From positions 1 through 64,000 of the forward strand of contig NZ_CANMNK010000005.1 in assembly GCF_947499265.1 (NCBI RefSeq): DNA of 64,000 nt. Direction: 5' to 3'. Below, in pieces: positions 21,699 through 60,848 of this stretch. Numbering within the stretch: position 1 is the first letter of the stretch; each line of letters starts with the position of its first letter. Both the position numbers and the translations under genes were made by a program. This DNA comes from an uncultured Roseobacter sp. Lineage in GTDB: Bacteria; Pseudomonadota; Alphaproteobacteria; Rhodobacterales; Rhodobacteraceae. Under the pieces are notes generated by a model that saw only the letters and a list, made by a program, of their open reading frames with translations, ran no database searches and was not told the DNA's origin.

Positions 21699-22991
21699 TC
21701 AATCGGCAAAAGGGTCCGTCACAAGGATCGTGTCCTCACGCTCGGGTGAGGTGGAAAGTAGGGCAACGGGGCAATTGATCAACTCCTCGACCCGGCGCAC
21801 GTATTTGATCGCATTGGCAGGCAGATCTGCCCAACTGCGGGCCCCTTCGGTAGATTCGTGCCACCCCGGCATCTCCTCGTAGATCGGCGTGCAACGCGCC
21901 TGATGATCCGCCGCTGTGGGCAGATAATCCAACGGTTCACCGTCCAATTCATAGCCTGTGCAGATTTTCAGCGTGTCAAAGCCATCCAACACGTCGAGTT
22001 TGGTAAAGGCGATCCCATTGACACCCGAGGTCGCGCAGGTCTGGCGCACCAGCACCGCGTCAAACCAGCCACAGCGGCGCTTGCGCCCCGTAACCGTTCC
22101 GAATTCGTGACCGCGTTCACCGAGCCGTTGGCCGTCCGCGTCGTCAAGTTCCGCCGGGAAAGGGCCTTCGCCCACACGCGTGGTATAGGCTTTGACGATC
22201 CCCAGTACGAAGTCGATGGATCCCGGCCCGATGCCCGTGCCCGTTGCCGCCTGCCCCGCAATCACGTTGGAGGAGGTCACGAAAGGATAGGTGCCGAAAT
22301 CGATGTCCAGCAACGCGCCTTGCGCGCCTTCGAACAGAATGCGCTTTCCTGCCTTGCGTTGTTCGTTCAGCACCTTCCATACGGGCGCCGCGTACGCCAA
22401 CACAACCGGCGCAATCTCTCGCAGTTTTGCCAGTAATGCATCGCGGTCGACGACTTCCAACCCCAATCCGCGGCGCAGTGCGTCATGATGCACGAGCGCA
22501 CGGTCAACCCGCAATTCAAGCGTGGCTTCATCCGCCAGATCGGCCACACGTACGGAACGGCGGCCCACTTTATCCTCATAAGCGGGGCCAATCCCGCGCC
22601 CGGTTGTGCCGATTTTGGCAACGGAATTCTGCGCCTCACGGGCGCGGTCCAGTTCCCCATGGATCGGCAGAATGAGGGGGGTGTTTTCTGCAATCATCAG
22701 CGTTTCGGGGGTGATTTCAACACCTTGGTTGCGCAACCCCTTGATCTCGCTGTCCAGATGCCAGGGATCCAGAACCACACCGTTACCGATCACGCTCAGC
22801 TTGCCACCACGCACGATCCCGGATGGCAGCAGGCTCAGCTTGAAGACCTCCCCGTCAATCACCAGCGTATGCCCGGCGTTGTGCCCGCCCTGAAACCGCG
22901 CGATCACATCCGCCCGCTCAGAGAGCCAGTCCACGATCTTGCCTTTTCCCTCATCGCCCCATTGAGCGCCGACAACGACAACATTTGCCAT
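21699..22991 (-). CDS. purA: Adenylosuccinate synthase
   Basis: PurA joins IMP and aspartate with GTP hydrolysis in AMP synthesis. The 430-residue protein begins [18 protein letters not shown], containing the catalytic Asp and P-loop, and has GHNAGHT and the [11 protein letters not shown] block. I chose ATG 22991, preceded by AAGGA at a good distance; an extension to 23018 lacks conservation. Cotranscribed with DUF2842. The other purine gene here, purD, is 15 kb away. Confidence 0.98.
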
Positions 22992-52490: not shown

Positions 52491-54449
52491 ATGGCCCCAA
52501 AAGACAGTTCAATCTCTCTTACTTTTCCCGACGGCAATGCGCGCGACTACCCGGCTGGCGTAACCGCTGGCGATGTTGCCGCAAGCATTTCGACCTCCCT
52601 GCGCAAGAAGGCGATCAGCGCGACCGTGAACGGCGAGCACTACGATCTTGCCTGGCCGATTGAAGGCGATGCCAGCGTTGCCATCCATACCATGCAGGAC
52701 GAAGAGCAGGCCAATGAGCTGGTCCGCCATGACCTTGCGCACATCATGGCCCGCGCGGTGCAGGAAATCTGGCCCGACACTCAGGTCACCATTGGCCCGG
52801 TGATCAAGGACGGCTGGTATTACGACTTTGACCGCGAAGACCCGTTCACTCCCGAAGATCTCGGCCTCATCGAGAAGAAGATGAAAGAGATCATCAACAA
52901 GCGTGACCCGGTGCGGACCGAGGTCTGGGACCGGGCGCGCGCCGTCAAGCACTACGAAGACGCGGGCGAGCCCTACAAAGTGGAGCTGATCGACGCCATT
53001 CCGGGCGACGAGCCATTGCGCATGTATTGGCATGGGGATTGGCAGGACCTCTGCCGTGGGCCGCATCTGCAGCACACCGGGCAGGTGCCGGGCGATGCCT
53101 TCAAGCTGATGTCGATTGCCGGGGCCTATTGGCGCGGCGACAGCGACCGCGCCATGTTGCAACGAATCTATGGCGTGGCCTTCACCGGCAAGGAAAAGCT
53201 GCGCGCGCATCTCAACATGCTGGAAGAGGCCGCCAAGCGCGACCACCGCAAGCTGGGCCGCGAGATGAACCTATTTCACATGCAGGAAGAGGCGCCCGGG
53301 CAGGTCTTCTGGCACCCCAATGGCTGGTCCATCTACACCACCTTGCAAGACTACATGCGGCGTAAACAGCGCGCAGCGGGCTATCAGGAAGTGAACACCC
53401 CGCAGGTCGTGGACCGTAAACTCTGGGAAGCCTCCGGCCACTGGGACAAATACCAGGAGCATATGTTCATCGTCGAGGTGGACGAAGAACACGCGCGCGA
53501 GAAGGCCATCAATGCCCTGAAGCCGATGAACTGCCCCTGCCACGTGCAAATCTTCAATCAGGGTCTGAAATCCTACCGCGATCTGCCCCTGCGTCTTGCG
53601 GAATTCGGCTCGTGTAACCGCTATGAGCCCTCGGGCGCGCTGCATGGCATCATGCGGGTGCGCGGGTTTACGCAGGACGATGGGCACATCTTCTGCCGTG
53701 AGGATCAGATCGAGGCCGAATGTGCAGATTTCATCAACTACCTCTCCTCCGTCTACAAGGATCTGGGGTTTGACAGTTTCGAGATCATGTTTGCGACCCG
53801 GCCCGAAAAGCGCGTTGGTTCAGAGGAAAGCTGGGATCACGTCGAATCCGCACTTGAGAACGCGATCAAGGCCACTGGCCACCCCTATACTCTGGACGCG
53901 GGTGAAGGCGCGTTTTACGGGCCCAAGCTCGACTTCAAACTGACGGATGCGATTGGCCGGGAATGGCAATGCGGCACCTTCCAGGTGGATCCCAACCTGC
54001 CCGAGCGGCTGGGGGCGACCTTCATCGGGGAAGATGGCGCCAAGCACAGGCCCTACATGCTGCACCGCGCCTGTCTGGGCTCCTTTGAGCGTTTCATCGG
54101 CATGCTGATCGAAAACTCGGCTGGTAAGCTGCCGTTCTGGCTGGCGCCACGCCAGGTTGTCGTTGCCTCCATCATCTCTGACGCCGACGACTATGTACAA
54201 GAGGTGGTCGAGACGCTGCGCGCAGCGGGCGTGCGGGCCGAAGCCGACATCCGCAACGAAAAGATCAACTATAAGGTGCGCGAGCATTCCGTGGGCAAAG
54301 TGCCGGTCATACTGGCCGTCGGTGCCCGCGAGGTTGAGGAACGCACGGTCACTGTCCGACGTCTGGGTGAAAAGCAGACACAGGTCCAACCCCTTGATGA
54401 GGTTGCCGCCGCGCTCTCCACGGACGCAACACCGCCCGACCAGTTGTAA
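52491..54449 (+). CDS. thrS: Threonyl-tRNA synthetase
   Basis: ThrS charges tRNA-Thr. The 652 residues comprise a TGS domain (about 1-65), the editing domain with the [10 protein letters not shown]-type region, the class II core with MNCPCH zinc-binding Cys, and an anticodon-binding domain. ATG 52491 has AGGAG at a good distance; a GTG at 52482 would lengthen it by three residues. No T-box is expected in this lineage and none was seen. A strong terminator follows. Confidence 0.98.
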
Positions 54450-54455
54450 CAAACT

Positions 54456-54497
54456 CCGGCCCCGGAGCGGCAAAAGACCGTTTCCGGGGCCGGTTTT
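54456..54497 (+). terminator. Strong terminator after thrS
   Basis: Eleven-base perfect arms CCGGCCCCGGA (54456-54466) and TCCGGGGCCGG (54483-54493) enclose a 16-base loop and are followed by TTTT. It isolates thrS from the bufferin operon promoter. Confidence 0.92.
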
Positions 54498-54560
54498 GTA
54501 ACATTTCAGGTGCTTGAAGTGCGATTTTCCGCGTCCGAGATAATTTCCACTGACAGCTCT

Positions 54561-54589
54561 GTGACACACAGGCTCGTGAGTGGTATATT
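54561..54589 (+). promoter_or_regulatory. Sigma-70 type promoter of the bufferin operon
   Basis: -35 GTGACA (54561-54566) and -10 TATATT (54584-54589) are separated by exactly 17 bp. Transcription would start near 54596, leaving a 5' leader of about 60 bases before ATG 54655. The match to the housekeeping consensus suggests basal expression; any copper or ECF-sigma control is not visible. Confidence 0.65.
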
Positions 54590-54654
54590 AACGCCTAAAA
54601 ACATACCTATACTGCATCAACGACCGCAATGGTCCGCAACAAGGGAATGAATTC

Positions 54655-54957
54655 ATGTCCAAAACAATGAAAACCGTAGCGATCGCAGGCGCAGTTGCAG
54701 CAGCCATGGCAGCGCAGGTGACAACCGCACAGGCTGCCGCAAAAGAAAAGTGTTTCGGCATCTCGCTGGCGGGCGCGAATGATTGCGCTGCTGGCCCGGG
54801 CACAACCTGTGCCGGTACATCGACAGTGGATTATCAGGGCAACGCCTGGACGCTGGTAGACGCAGGCACATGCGCAGAGATCGAACTGCCCGCGATGGCA
54901 GACGGCACCGAGCGCAAGGGTTCGCTGGAAGAACTGGACCGCGATCTGCCAGCCTAA
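54655..54957 (+). CDS. bufA1: Bufferin-type precursor peptide (DUF2282), BufA1-like
   Basis: The 100-residue DUF2282 protein has a Sec signal (about 1-28, ending TAQAA) and a mature part with four cysteines at 33, 44, 52 and 73, the spacing typical of BufA1 peptides. In Caulobacter such a peptide is modified by an MNIO enzyme, which turns two cysteines into thiooxazoles, and is exported to bind copper in the periplasm. Here it is followed by the full set of partner genes, so the same role is likely. The acidic C-terminus is unmodified in appearance. Confidence 0.92.
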
Positions 54958-54978
54958 GCCGGTTTCCCCCAAAGAAGA

Positions 54979-55005
54979 GGTCAGGCGGTGATCTACCGGC
55001 TGACC
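54979..55005 (+). terminator. Hairpin between bufA1 and bufB
   Basis: Eleven-base arms 54979-54989 and 54995-55005 pair with one mismatch around a five-base loop. No T run follows. It probably raises precursor mRNA level relative to the enzymes. Confidence 0.6.
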
Positions 55006-55055
55006 CTCACACCAAACGATGCCCTAGGACACATGAAGTTAGTTGGTGGGTCACG

Positions 55056-55910
55056 ATGTTAGACAACTCCCCTCGCGCGCCCAACCTGCCAAACGCCCCC
55101 GGTGTCGGCTATAAACCTCAGCATTTTACGGACTTACGCGCCGATCCAGGCCCCGTGCGGTGGATCGAGGTCCATGCTGAGAATTATATGGGTGACGGCG
55201 GGCGCCCTCTTGCGCAACTGCGTGCGCTGGCGGATCAGTTTGCCCTGTCTGTGCACGGTGTCGGCCTGAGCATTGGTGGCGAAGCACCGCTTGACCGTGA
55301 CCACCTTGCCCGTCTGAAAACGCTTGTCGGGTGGTCCAGTCCAGCCAGTTTTTCAGAGCATCTGGCGTGGTCCACACATGGTGCAGAATTCCTGAATGAC
55401 CTGCTGCCCCTGCCCTATACATCCGAAACGCTGCAGCGGGTGGCTGATCACATCGATCAGGTGCAAACAGCGCTGGGACGCCAGATGCTGCTGGAAAACC
55501 CTTCCAGTTACCTTTGCTTTGCCGAAAGCACTTGGTCCGAAACCGATTTTCTGGCTGAGTTGGTGCATCGCACAGGCTGCGGTCTGCTGCTTGATGTAAA
55601 CAACGTTTTCATATCTGCCACCAACCTTGGGCTGTCTGCTGAAAGCTACATCGAGGCTTTCCCGCTGCATGCGGTTGGCGAGATCCACGTGGGCGGCCAT
55701 GATGAAGATACCGATGATCACGGCGCACCTCTGCTGATCGATAGTCACGGCAAACCCGTTGTGGACCCGGTGTGGTCCCTTCTGGCGTTCGCCCTCGCGA
55801 AATCCGGTCCCAGGCCCGTGCTTGTTGAATGGGACAATGACGTCCCCGACTGGCCGGTATTGCGAGCAGAGGCCGAACGTGCGGCACTGGCGCTCGCCCC
55901 GGCACAATGA
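55056..55910 (+). CDS. bufB: MNIO enzyme (DUF692), BufB-like
   Basis: The 284-residue protein is a DUF692 multinuclear iron oxidase. It shows the TIM-barrel metal ligands: E42 in HAENYM, H67, H102 in SEHLAW, E147 in LLENPSSY, D180 in LLLDVNN, H211 and H215 in IHVGGH, and D229/H231. It would modify the cysteines of the precursor. I chose ATG 55056, near where family homology begins (GVGYKPQHF). Its stop overlaps bufC in ATGA. Confidence 0.93.
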
Positions 55911-56662
55911 GCGTTTCACAGGCCACATTCCGCAGCGCTTTGCTGGACGCGGAAGAAGCCGTGCCCGAAGGTCTCCTCGACGGCTCCGACACCCCAGCAG
56001 GCGCCAGATTTTCCGTATACCGAAACAACGTAGTGGTGTCCCTGACCGAAGCTCTGCGCACGGCGTTTCCGTTGATTTACAAGCTCCTGGGTGCGCAAAC
56101 CTTTGACCGGTTGGCAGCGATCTATGTGCGCCAGCAACCGCCATCGTCACCACTGATGATGCACTACGGACAAGAGCTGCCAAAATTCCTGCAAAGCTTT
56201 CAACCGCTTTCGCATATCGGATATTTGCCCGACTGCGCCCGTTTGGACATCGCAATGCGCCGCTCTTATCACGCGAAGGACGCCGCGCCGATTAACCCCA
56301 GCGTTTTCCAGACCGATCCCGAAGAGCTGATGTCGCTGCGGTTGGCGCTTGCGCCCGCAACCATTGTGCTGCGCTCTGACTGGCCCTTGCATGACATCTG
56401 GCGGTTGAATTTTGAGCCAGATGCGCCAAAACCACGGGCAACGGCCCAGGACGTTCTGATCACCCGCCCGGAATTCGACCCCGCGCCCCATGCATTGCAG
56501 CCGGGGGGTGCGGATTGGCTTCAGCACCTGCAAAACGGCATGGCATTTGGGTCGGCGCATGAAGCGACGATCACCGCCGCGCCCTCATTTGATCTCTCGG
56601 CAGCGCTGTCGCAGGCGCTGCAAACCGGTGCCCTCACAGAATTCAAGACAAAGGACAGCTAA
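55907..56662 (+). CDS. bufC: DUF2063 partner of the MNIO enzyme, BufC-like
   Basis: The 251-residue protein has the DUF2063 N-terminal domain (about 3-95: [37 protein letters not shown] in part) and a less conserved C-terminal half. HvfC/BufC proteins bring the leader peptide to the MNIO enzyme. Translation is coupled to bufB by ATGA. Often mis-annotated as DNA-binding; nothing here supports that. Confidence 0.9.
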
Positions 56663-57211
56663 ATGATCTCCGCCTACACTTCAGTCACCGAACGCCTCTC
56701 GCGCGCAGACTGGCTCTTGCCGACGCTTGCGCGCCTTGTCTTCGCGGGTACTTTGCTGATGTATTTCTGGGTCTCCGGGCTGACAAAACTGGGCGGCGGT
56801 CTTGTCGGGCTCTTTCAGCCCTCTGTCGGTGCCTACGCGCAGATTTTCCCAAAGGCGATGGAAGCGGTGACATATGACACCTCACAGCTGTCCCTCTACC
56901 ATTGGGCGGTCGTTGTTGCGGGCACCTGGGCGGAATTCATTCTGCCAGCACTCATCGTTCTGGGGCTGCTAACACGGCTCTCCGCGCTTGGCATGATCGG
57001 GTTCATCATCGTGCAATCCTTGACGGATTTGATTGGTCACGGCGGGTTTGAGCACAAGGAAACTTTTGGCGCGTGGTTTGATCGCTTTCCCGACAGCGTG
57101 ATCCTGGACCAACGCAGCTTCTGGATTTTCGTATTGTTGGTTCTGGTGATCAAAGGAGCCGGGCCTGTGTCACTCGACAATGCGCTGCGCGGCCGCAGCG
57201 CCCAAACCTGA
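56663..57211 (+). CDS. DoxX-family membrane protein of the bufferin operon
   Basis: The 182-residue protein has about four membrane helices and the DoxX pattern (RLVFAGTLLMYFWVSGLTKL in part, then GLLTRLSALGMIGFIIVQ in part). It directly follows bufC with AAGGA in the bufC tail. DoxX proteins commonly end buf and hvf operons; their role there is not established. Confidence 0.88.
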   Translation: MISAYTSVTERLSRADWLLPTLARLVFAGTLLMYFWVSGLTKLGGGLVGLFQPSVGAYAQIFPKAMEAVTYDTSQLSLYHWAVVVAGTWAEFILPALIVLGLLTRLSALGMIGFIIVQSLTDLIGHGGFEHKETFGAWFDRFPDSVILDQRSFWIFVLLVLVIKGAGPVSLDNALRGRSAQT

Positions 57212-60413: not shown

Positions 60414-60848
60414 TTACTTACCAGATTGTCGCCAAGACGAATTGACAACAGACTTTCCAGACCAGCCGACAATCTCGTTGGCTGCTTTGCTCACAATCGA
60501 TGATTTTCGGTCGGCACCCCAAAGATCAACTGCAACAATTGGCCTTCTAAAAGCTTGAGCCCCATCAATTTCAGTTTTTATCCACCGCGAATAGTTCGCG
60601 TACATCCCTGTTGGAATTACGACAACATCACTCTGATCAATTCGTTGAAAAATTGCCATTGCCAATTCCTGATCGTTTACCGCGGAATGAACCGGGCTAC
60701 TTTCAGGAATCGATTTGTCAATGAATTGAAGGCTGGTTCGCTCGTTGCCCCACTGGGTTTCAAATAACCATCCTGCTAACCGCTCGTAGTGGTTCGAGTA
60801 GCGCCACGAGTGACTTATGAAAACGTTGATAACGGATGTATACTTCAC
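60414..60848 (-). CDS. ThsB-like TIR-domain protein, coupled to thyX
   Basis: The 144-residue single-domain protein resembles the Thoeris ThsB TIR-like family (MTH538/DUF1863): NVFISHSW at the first strand, helix [10 protein letters not shown], a core [21 protein letters not shown] (quoted in part) with W89 and E93 in the position of the TIR NAD-cleaving glutamate. Its GTG start overlaps the thyX stop in GTGA, so it is read as the second gene of that operon. Its DNA is visibly richer in A and T than its neighbours. No ThsA-type effector is in the window. Activity is unproven. Confidence 0.8.

Follow-up and report, generated by a model that had tools for sequence, protein, structure and literature searches.

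The cluster of genes that follows thrS in a 64,000-nucleotide stretch of DNA from an uncultured Roseobacter sp. (contig NZ_CANMNK010000005.1; hereafter, the window) raises the question of what peptide it makes and how its expression is controlled. The original prediction was a complete four-gene operon of the bufferin type, and family models, conservation and the order of the genes support this assignment, more precisely to the Buf1 bufferins: DUF2282, MNIO, DUF2063 and DoxX genes were all found where they had been placed, arranged as follows.

ending at 54449, + strand: thrS, the next gene upstream of the operon
54456..54499, + strand: terminator-like hairpin of thrS, recognised by eye (CCGGCCCCGGA / TCCGGGGCCGG, then TTTTGT)
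54655..54957, + strand: bufA1, Buf1/DUF2282 precursor of 100 aa with cysteines at 33, 44, 52 and 73
55056..55910, + strand: bufB1, MNIO (DUF692) bufferin maturase (Pfam, NCBIfam)
55907..56662, + strand: bufC1, DUF2063 partner protein (Pfam)
56663..57211, + strand: DoxX-family membrane protein (Pfam), directly after bufC1

The thrS hairpin is the upstream boundary and lies outside the operon; a terminator scan of the region had no entry for it at 54456..54499. The predicted DUF2282 peptide with four cysteines was confirmed, with BufA1 scoring 83.9 bits against the DUF2282 model (cut-off 22.4), and its N-terminus, judged by eye only, is typical of a Sec signal peptide. BufB1 scored 336 bits with the Pfam model MbnB_TglH_ChrH and 367.5 bits with the NCBIfam BufB equivalog NF050167 (cut-off 310), which places it over the BufB cut-off and under that of HvfB. 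Eight of its residues (His67, His102, Glu147, Asp180, His211, Asp229, His231 and Glu258) are identical to those of the 3bww chain in the alignment, and we take them to be the full set of metal ligands that had been claimed. The DUF2063 and DoxX proteins both exceed their Pfam cut-offs, and the NCBIfam HvfC and HvfX models stay below cut-off for the window proteins. The genes are as tightly spaced as predicted, since the bufC1 start overlaps the bufB1 end by 4 bases and doxX adjoins bufC1. Further along the window, a ThsB-type TIR domain protein (Thoeris; Pfam ThsB_TIR, 52.6 bits) is encoded on the - strand at 60414-60848.

We retrieved 80 relatives by MNIO protein similarity and inspected the neighbouring DNA for thrS, bufA, bufC and doxX. 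All 80 have bufC, and 79 each have thrS, bufA and doxX; the genes missing from L064 (thrS, bufA) and L008 (doxX) fall where the contig ends. The source genome has one DUF2282 gene, and DUF2282 is present in 211 of 295 family genomes. As DUF2282 and the gene set are found across most relatives, the pathway is ordinary and widespread, and the window operon is a regular new member of the Buf1 bufferins. Several features were seen in passing. Tandem DUF2282 precursor genes stand before a single MNIO gene in L050 and L202. The C-terminal tail of BufA1 (about 54910-54957) resembles GSLExLxRDLPA, extends beyond the DUF2282 model and is common to most of the precursors listed for loci L002-L081; the enzyme pair could use it for docking. 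Plasmid records with MNIO relatives number 356, of which 73 are labelled Escherichia, the latter with about 54% identity or less among the matches listed. Locus L056 (JAHVJD010000002.1) is labelled Nocardioides marinus, and its thrS and buf genes look like those of Leisingera-type Rhodobacteraceae; the assembly is probably mislabelled.

The Buf1 bufferins presented in PMC12452194 have four conserved cysteines, the MNIO/DUF2063/DoxX core and, as far as judged by eye, a signal peptide in common with the window, and against that account we see no difference in peptide or enzymes. Likewise, CC3254-CC3257 of Caulobacter crescentus encode DUF2282, DUF692, DUF2063 and DoxX proteins in the same order (PMC3511200). 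The captophorins (fontiphorin, oxazolin and gonophorin) are alike in their MNIO and DUF2063-type partner, their 5-thiooxazoles and their Cu binding, but carry EGKCG Lys-Cys repeats where the window has DUF2282 (PMC12668002). According to PMC12452194, the central cysteines of Buf1 are modified while the first and last form a disulphide, so that the loss of hydrogens is expected per central cysteine and not, as had been predicted, per cysteine pair. By analogy, BufB together with BufC would probably introduce 5-thiooxazoles at C44 and C52, the precursor modified in this way would be exported by Sec, the C33-C73 disulphide would form, and the periplasmic peptide would sequester excess copper; the role of DoxX and the placing of export after modification follow homology. 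By homology, it is fair to infer that copper is sequestered by thiooxazoles here. A peptide whose main task concerns oxidants or a metal other than copper would agree with the chromium response of the Caulobacter homologues through sigma-F (PMC3511200) and with the MsrA link described below, which points to oxidants; however, the characterised bufferins chelate excess copper (PMC12452194) and related thiooxazole peptides bind Cu (PMC12668002), making such a role rather improbable.

We then considered control of the operon in the region before bufA, of which up to 220 bases were taken from the window and from 79 of the 80 relatives. These upstream regions share a conserved block, TNAC-N6-GTGA-NN-CAC-N6-GTGA-N-T, composed of two adjacent 14-bp palindromes that begin 15 bp from each other, and window positions 54551-54581 match TNACNNNNNNGTGANNCACNNNNNNGTGANT exactly. 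The elements of this region are:

54551..54564, no strand: palindrome 1 of the tandem operator, TGAC-N6-GTGA
54566..54579, no strand: palindrome 2 of the tandem operator, ACAC-N6-GTGA, followed by a conserved T at 54581
54608..54613, + strand: candidate -10 element, TATACT, with modest column conservation

A housekeeping-type promoter had been proposed at this place, and GTGACA-N17-TATATT is literally present in the window, where it would drive the operon as an ordinary sigma-70 promoter without a dedicated regulator. It has 10 of 12 consensus matches and a TG before the -10; promoter-like sites in 3.8 kb number 3, versus 1.2 expected in shuffles. However, in 75 aligned rows the six TATATT columns hold 0.02 to 0.39 bits, compared with about 1.1 to 1.8 bits for the core palindrome columns, and TATATT is absent in the three closest relatives L002, L003 and L051, so that we rejected it as a working -10. 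GTGACA is conserved because it is part of the double palindrome. Since TATATT is unconserved, GTGACA and TATATT are argued against as a working pair, and a plain sigma-70 promoter is very improbable; the literal match stands and the housekeeping role does not. A weaker TAnnnT-like block, with up to 0.7 bits, is conserved about 53-59 bases into the element, and the -10 of the window is probably TATACT at 54608-54613 in place of TATATT at 54584-54589. The former lies about 28 bp below the last GTGA of the tandem operator; conservation of TATACT-type elements across the upstream regions is modest, and L003 and L051 retain CTATA. The -35 position is poor, which would resemble activator-dependent promoters. 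A GTAACA at 54498-54503, just behind the thrS terminator, was rejected as a sigma-F promoter: it lacks a suitably spaced CGAA and, at 157 bases from bufA, is too far upstream.

The exact tandem element occurs once in the source genome, before bufA. With up to two mismatches, there are 3 matches in this genome (the exact site before bufA, its counterpart read on the opposite strand and an additional match) versus 4 for the reversed-pattern control; therefore, only the exact site counts there. With at most one mismatch, the element is found in 54 of 120 family genomes, and in exact form in 65 of 196 order-level genomes, with the reversed pattern in 2 in each case; the two sets overlap and share genera, and their counts are not independent. 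Among the 30 retrieved one-mismatch loci, 25 are directly upstream of bufA, three lie inside open frames (L131, L144 and L150), one is intergenic without clear meaning (L128), and one precedes an exported MsrA gene (L133). Likewise, 11 of the 12 retrieved exact loci are before bufA and one (L213) is before an exported MsrA gene. In L065 and L127, the tandem operator is repeated between bufA and bufB, an arrangement that would suit a separate bufB promoter. Beyond the Rhodobacteraceae, the palindrome is patchy: 12 of 30 class-level loci (L167-L196) have a sigma-F-type match, just before which a strict palindrome occurs in L185 only and imperfect ones, by eye, in L170 and L173. Six plasmid loci comprise one with the exact tandem element (L201, Tritonibacter), one with a palindrome before GTAAC (L199, Gemmobacter), one with an imperfect palindrome (L200) and three with none (L197, L198 and L202). 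The only exact TCAC-N6-GTGA palindrome of the window is at 21736.

In Caulobacter crescentus, CC3254-CC3257 belong to the sigma-F/NrsF regulon and have GTAACC-N16-CGAA and a nearby sigF-nrsF (PMC3511200), whereas the window has a tandem palindrome and its genome no NrsF. A GTAAC-N15..18-CG(A/T) promoter 60-110 bases before bufA is absent in the window, and the NrsF anti-sigma factor gave 0 matches in the source genome, with a positive Caulobacter control. In the window lineage, the sigma-F/NrsF switch is missing and the tandem palindrome is there instead. To the 80 upstream regions we added 39 from 42 further family loci, giving 119, of which 111 are unique. They were assigned to the operator class at a score of 12/15 or better 80-150 bases before bufA, and to the sigma-F-type class by GTAAC-N15..18-CG(A/T) 60-110 bases before bufA. 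The 111 unique regions divide into 86 with the operator, 18 of the sigma-F type, 0 with both and 7 with neither (L039, L047, L050, L080, L089, L090 and L105), several of the last showing decayed or single palindromes by eye. The operator threshold was reached in 6 of 2220 shuffles; since 80 of the 119 regions counted had served to derive the pattern, it is the genome-wide searches that are independent tests. Under looser limits, 5 of 119 score as both classes: L006, L011 and L056 have GTAAC matches located at other distances, and L082, like its duplicate L120, has a score of 12. Considered as a further element, a conserved 5'-UTR hairpin was discarded as weak (at most 1/30 shuffles as stable in 18 of 85 operator loci and 4 of 18 sigma-F-type loci), and an Rfam search gave no match.

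NrsF matches occur in 45 of the 295 family genomes, 40 of them over the cut-off. In a presence table over 120 genomes, transcribed by hand from the genome searches, the operator is found in 51 of 85 genomes with DUF2282 and in 3 of 35 without. Within those 85, it is found in 0 of 14 with NrsF and in 51 of 71 without (p 3.7e-7, relatedness ignored); that is, the tandem form is associated with a lack of NrsF. One NrsF genome, G274, does carry an exact tandem element, but this precedes MsrA and not the bufferin operon. Furthermore, a TCAC-N6-GTGA palindrome with at least 7/8 matches lies within 40 bases upstream of 17 of the 18 sigma-F-type promoters (1.2% in shuffles), and in 16 the best palindrome ends 4-6 bases before GTAAC, the -35. 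With a palindrome before the sigma-F-type -35, a single palindrome thus seems common to both promoter classes, and one palindrome just upstream of the sigma-F -35 may have been the ancestral state.

A second target is suggested by L133 and L213, in which the tandem element stands directly before an MsrA gene with a signal-like start; Pfam confirms both proteins, and the L133 genome is without DUF2282. By a directed look at the two MsrA genes of the source genome, we found a similar element at one of them:

C1:427916-428344, source genome: exported MsrA gene (L225), preceded by a bufA-like tandem palindrome with one extra base

Here, TCACCAGCCCGTGA lies 80 bases before the start and is followed by CATCGCAGGCTCGTGAATTG; relative to the window element, one base is inserted and one core base changed, and the site scores 8/15 ungapped. 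The other MsrA gene (L224) has no such element upstream. TCAC-N6-GTGA occurs twice in 49,511 bases of the source genome, this site included, and once in the window; therefore, a chance palindrome within 200 bases of L225 is unlikely. A palindrome-plus-sigma-F pattern with one fixed spacing was found in 8 of 295 genomes (the reversed pattern in 5) and was used only to choose loci, of which we looked at 6 of 9. The site precedes exported MsrB genes in L205 and L211 (the former by eye, the latter by Pfam), a DsbD-like/thioredoxin pair in L204 (by eye), bufA in L206, and other genes in L207 and L209. As a like element stands before exported MsrA, in the source genome too, copper buffering in the periplasm and methionine repair seem to be linked in one regulon, and a regulator-driven periplasmic copper/oxidant regulon would be the best reading.

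A tandem operator just upstream of a weak -35, with a -10-like element below, suggests binding of an activator, and its layout that of a dimeric one, which would bind TNACR-N4-YGTGA twice, with starts 15 bp apart. Palindromic sites fit repressors equally, and the single palindrome is just upstream of the sigma-F-type -35 as well, as might be expected of a repressor operator relieved by metal or oxidant; however, the site lies upstream of a poor -35 and not over the -10 or start, a position probably more usual for activators, and repression is an unlikely reading. The regulator could be a response regulator like CusR/HprR that senses copper or reactive chlorine/oxygen. The E. coli CusR/HprR box, CATTACAAAATTGTAATG (PMC9302797), has the skeleton TNACA-N4-TGTNA, which recurs here twice as TNACR-N4-YGTGA, with R/Y replacing A/T; the common part is TNAC-N6-GTNA (PMC9302797, PMC8249747). 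In the presence of copper, CusR of E. coli acts on msrP by way of a box with a similar skeleton (PMC9302797), and this copper/oxidant control of a periplasmic Met-sulfoxide reductase by CusR and HprR (PMC9302797, PMC8249747) can be likened to the inclusion of MsrA in the putative regulon here, although the E. coli regulators act on cus and msrPQ, whereas the window regulon would have tandem sites before bufferin and MsrA genes. However, an orthologous response regulator was not found in the source genome at the TIGR01387 cut-off, below which there are 41 weaker matches; the best candidate is rare in the family, and half-sites this short could suit other families. A CusR/HprR-like regulator therefore seems doubtful. 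When the 10 best candidates per genome were scored, the CopR-like pair at C5:453474-454142 of the source genome reached E<=1e-50 in only 14 of 290 genomes, its own included, and was rejected as the general regulator. Word searches of the main text of PMC12452194 gave no mention of the promoter element or the spacer hairpin, and the tandem operator, the regulon and a role for the spacer hairpin were not found in the open-licence literature searched. We give an even chance to an undescribed Rhodobacteraceae regulator that controls bufferin and exported MsrA genes, and that acted first beside sigma-F and then, by doubling of its site, alone without NrsF.

The original prediction also held that a hairpin between the precursor and enzyme genes sets this operon apart.

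54977..55008, + strand: hairpin between the precursor and enzyme genes

This stem is present and is more stable than 30/30 shuffles, while the 98-nt spacer taken in full shows no unusual stability (z -0.87). However, it is not a departure from other members. The best local hairpin was computed for 77 bufA-bufB spacers, that of the window among them, and its median is -23.2 kcal/mol versus -12.8 in shuffles; 0/30 shuffles are as stable in 60 spacers, and at most 1/30 in 71. The hairpin was not above chance in L003 and L051, which are among the closest relatives. Stem sequences vary freely among the 77 spacers. At least 5 T in the next 8 bases follow the hairpin in only 8 of 77, so most of these hairpins are not typical terminators. 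Of the 17 sigma-F-type loci considered, 14 have measurable spacers, 12 of these with at most 1/20 shuffles as stable; two spacers are short (3 and 22 bases) and one is unparsable. A stable spacer stem is also found in L198, L199, L200 and L202, and rhizobial loci have a spacer hairpin too, while Asticcacaulis L197, with a 2-base spacer, has no room for one. A likely role would be protection of the 3' end of the precursor mRNA, with partial termination as the alternative; either way, the hairpin would probably keep the precursor message above the enzyme message. In the window spacer, a long predicted pairing would cover the bases before the bufB start.

Taken as a whole, the locus is a Buf1 bufferin operon, predicted to sequester copper and probably under tandem-operator control that would be shared with exported MsrA, with a hairpin that would favour the precursor. 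Among copper-handling RiPPs, bufferins are very common, and we met no control other than sigma-F/NrsF in the bufferin literature searched. If our reading is true, many Rhodobacteraceae, which are abundant marine bacteria, would activate bufferins by a route other than sigma-F/NrsF, and the tandem element would offer a direct handle for fishing out the regulator. A hairpin so common behind the precursor gene hints at a general means of producing peptide in excess of enzyme, and, if the MsrA link holds, copper trapping and the repair of oxidised methionine in the periplasm would be one response.
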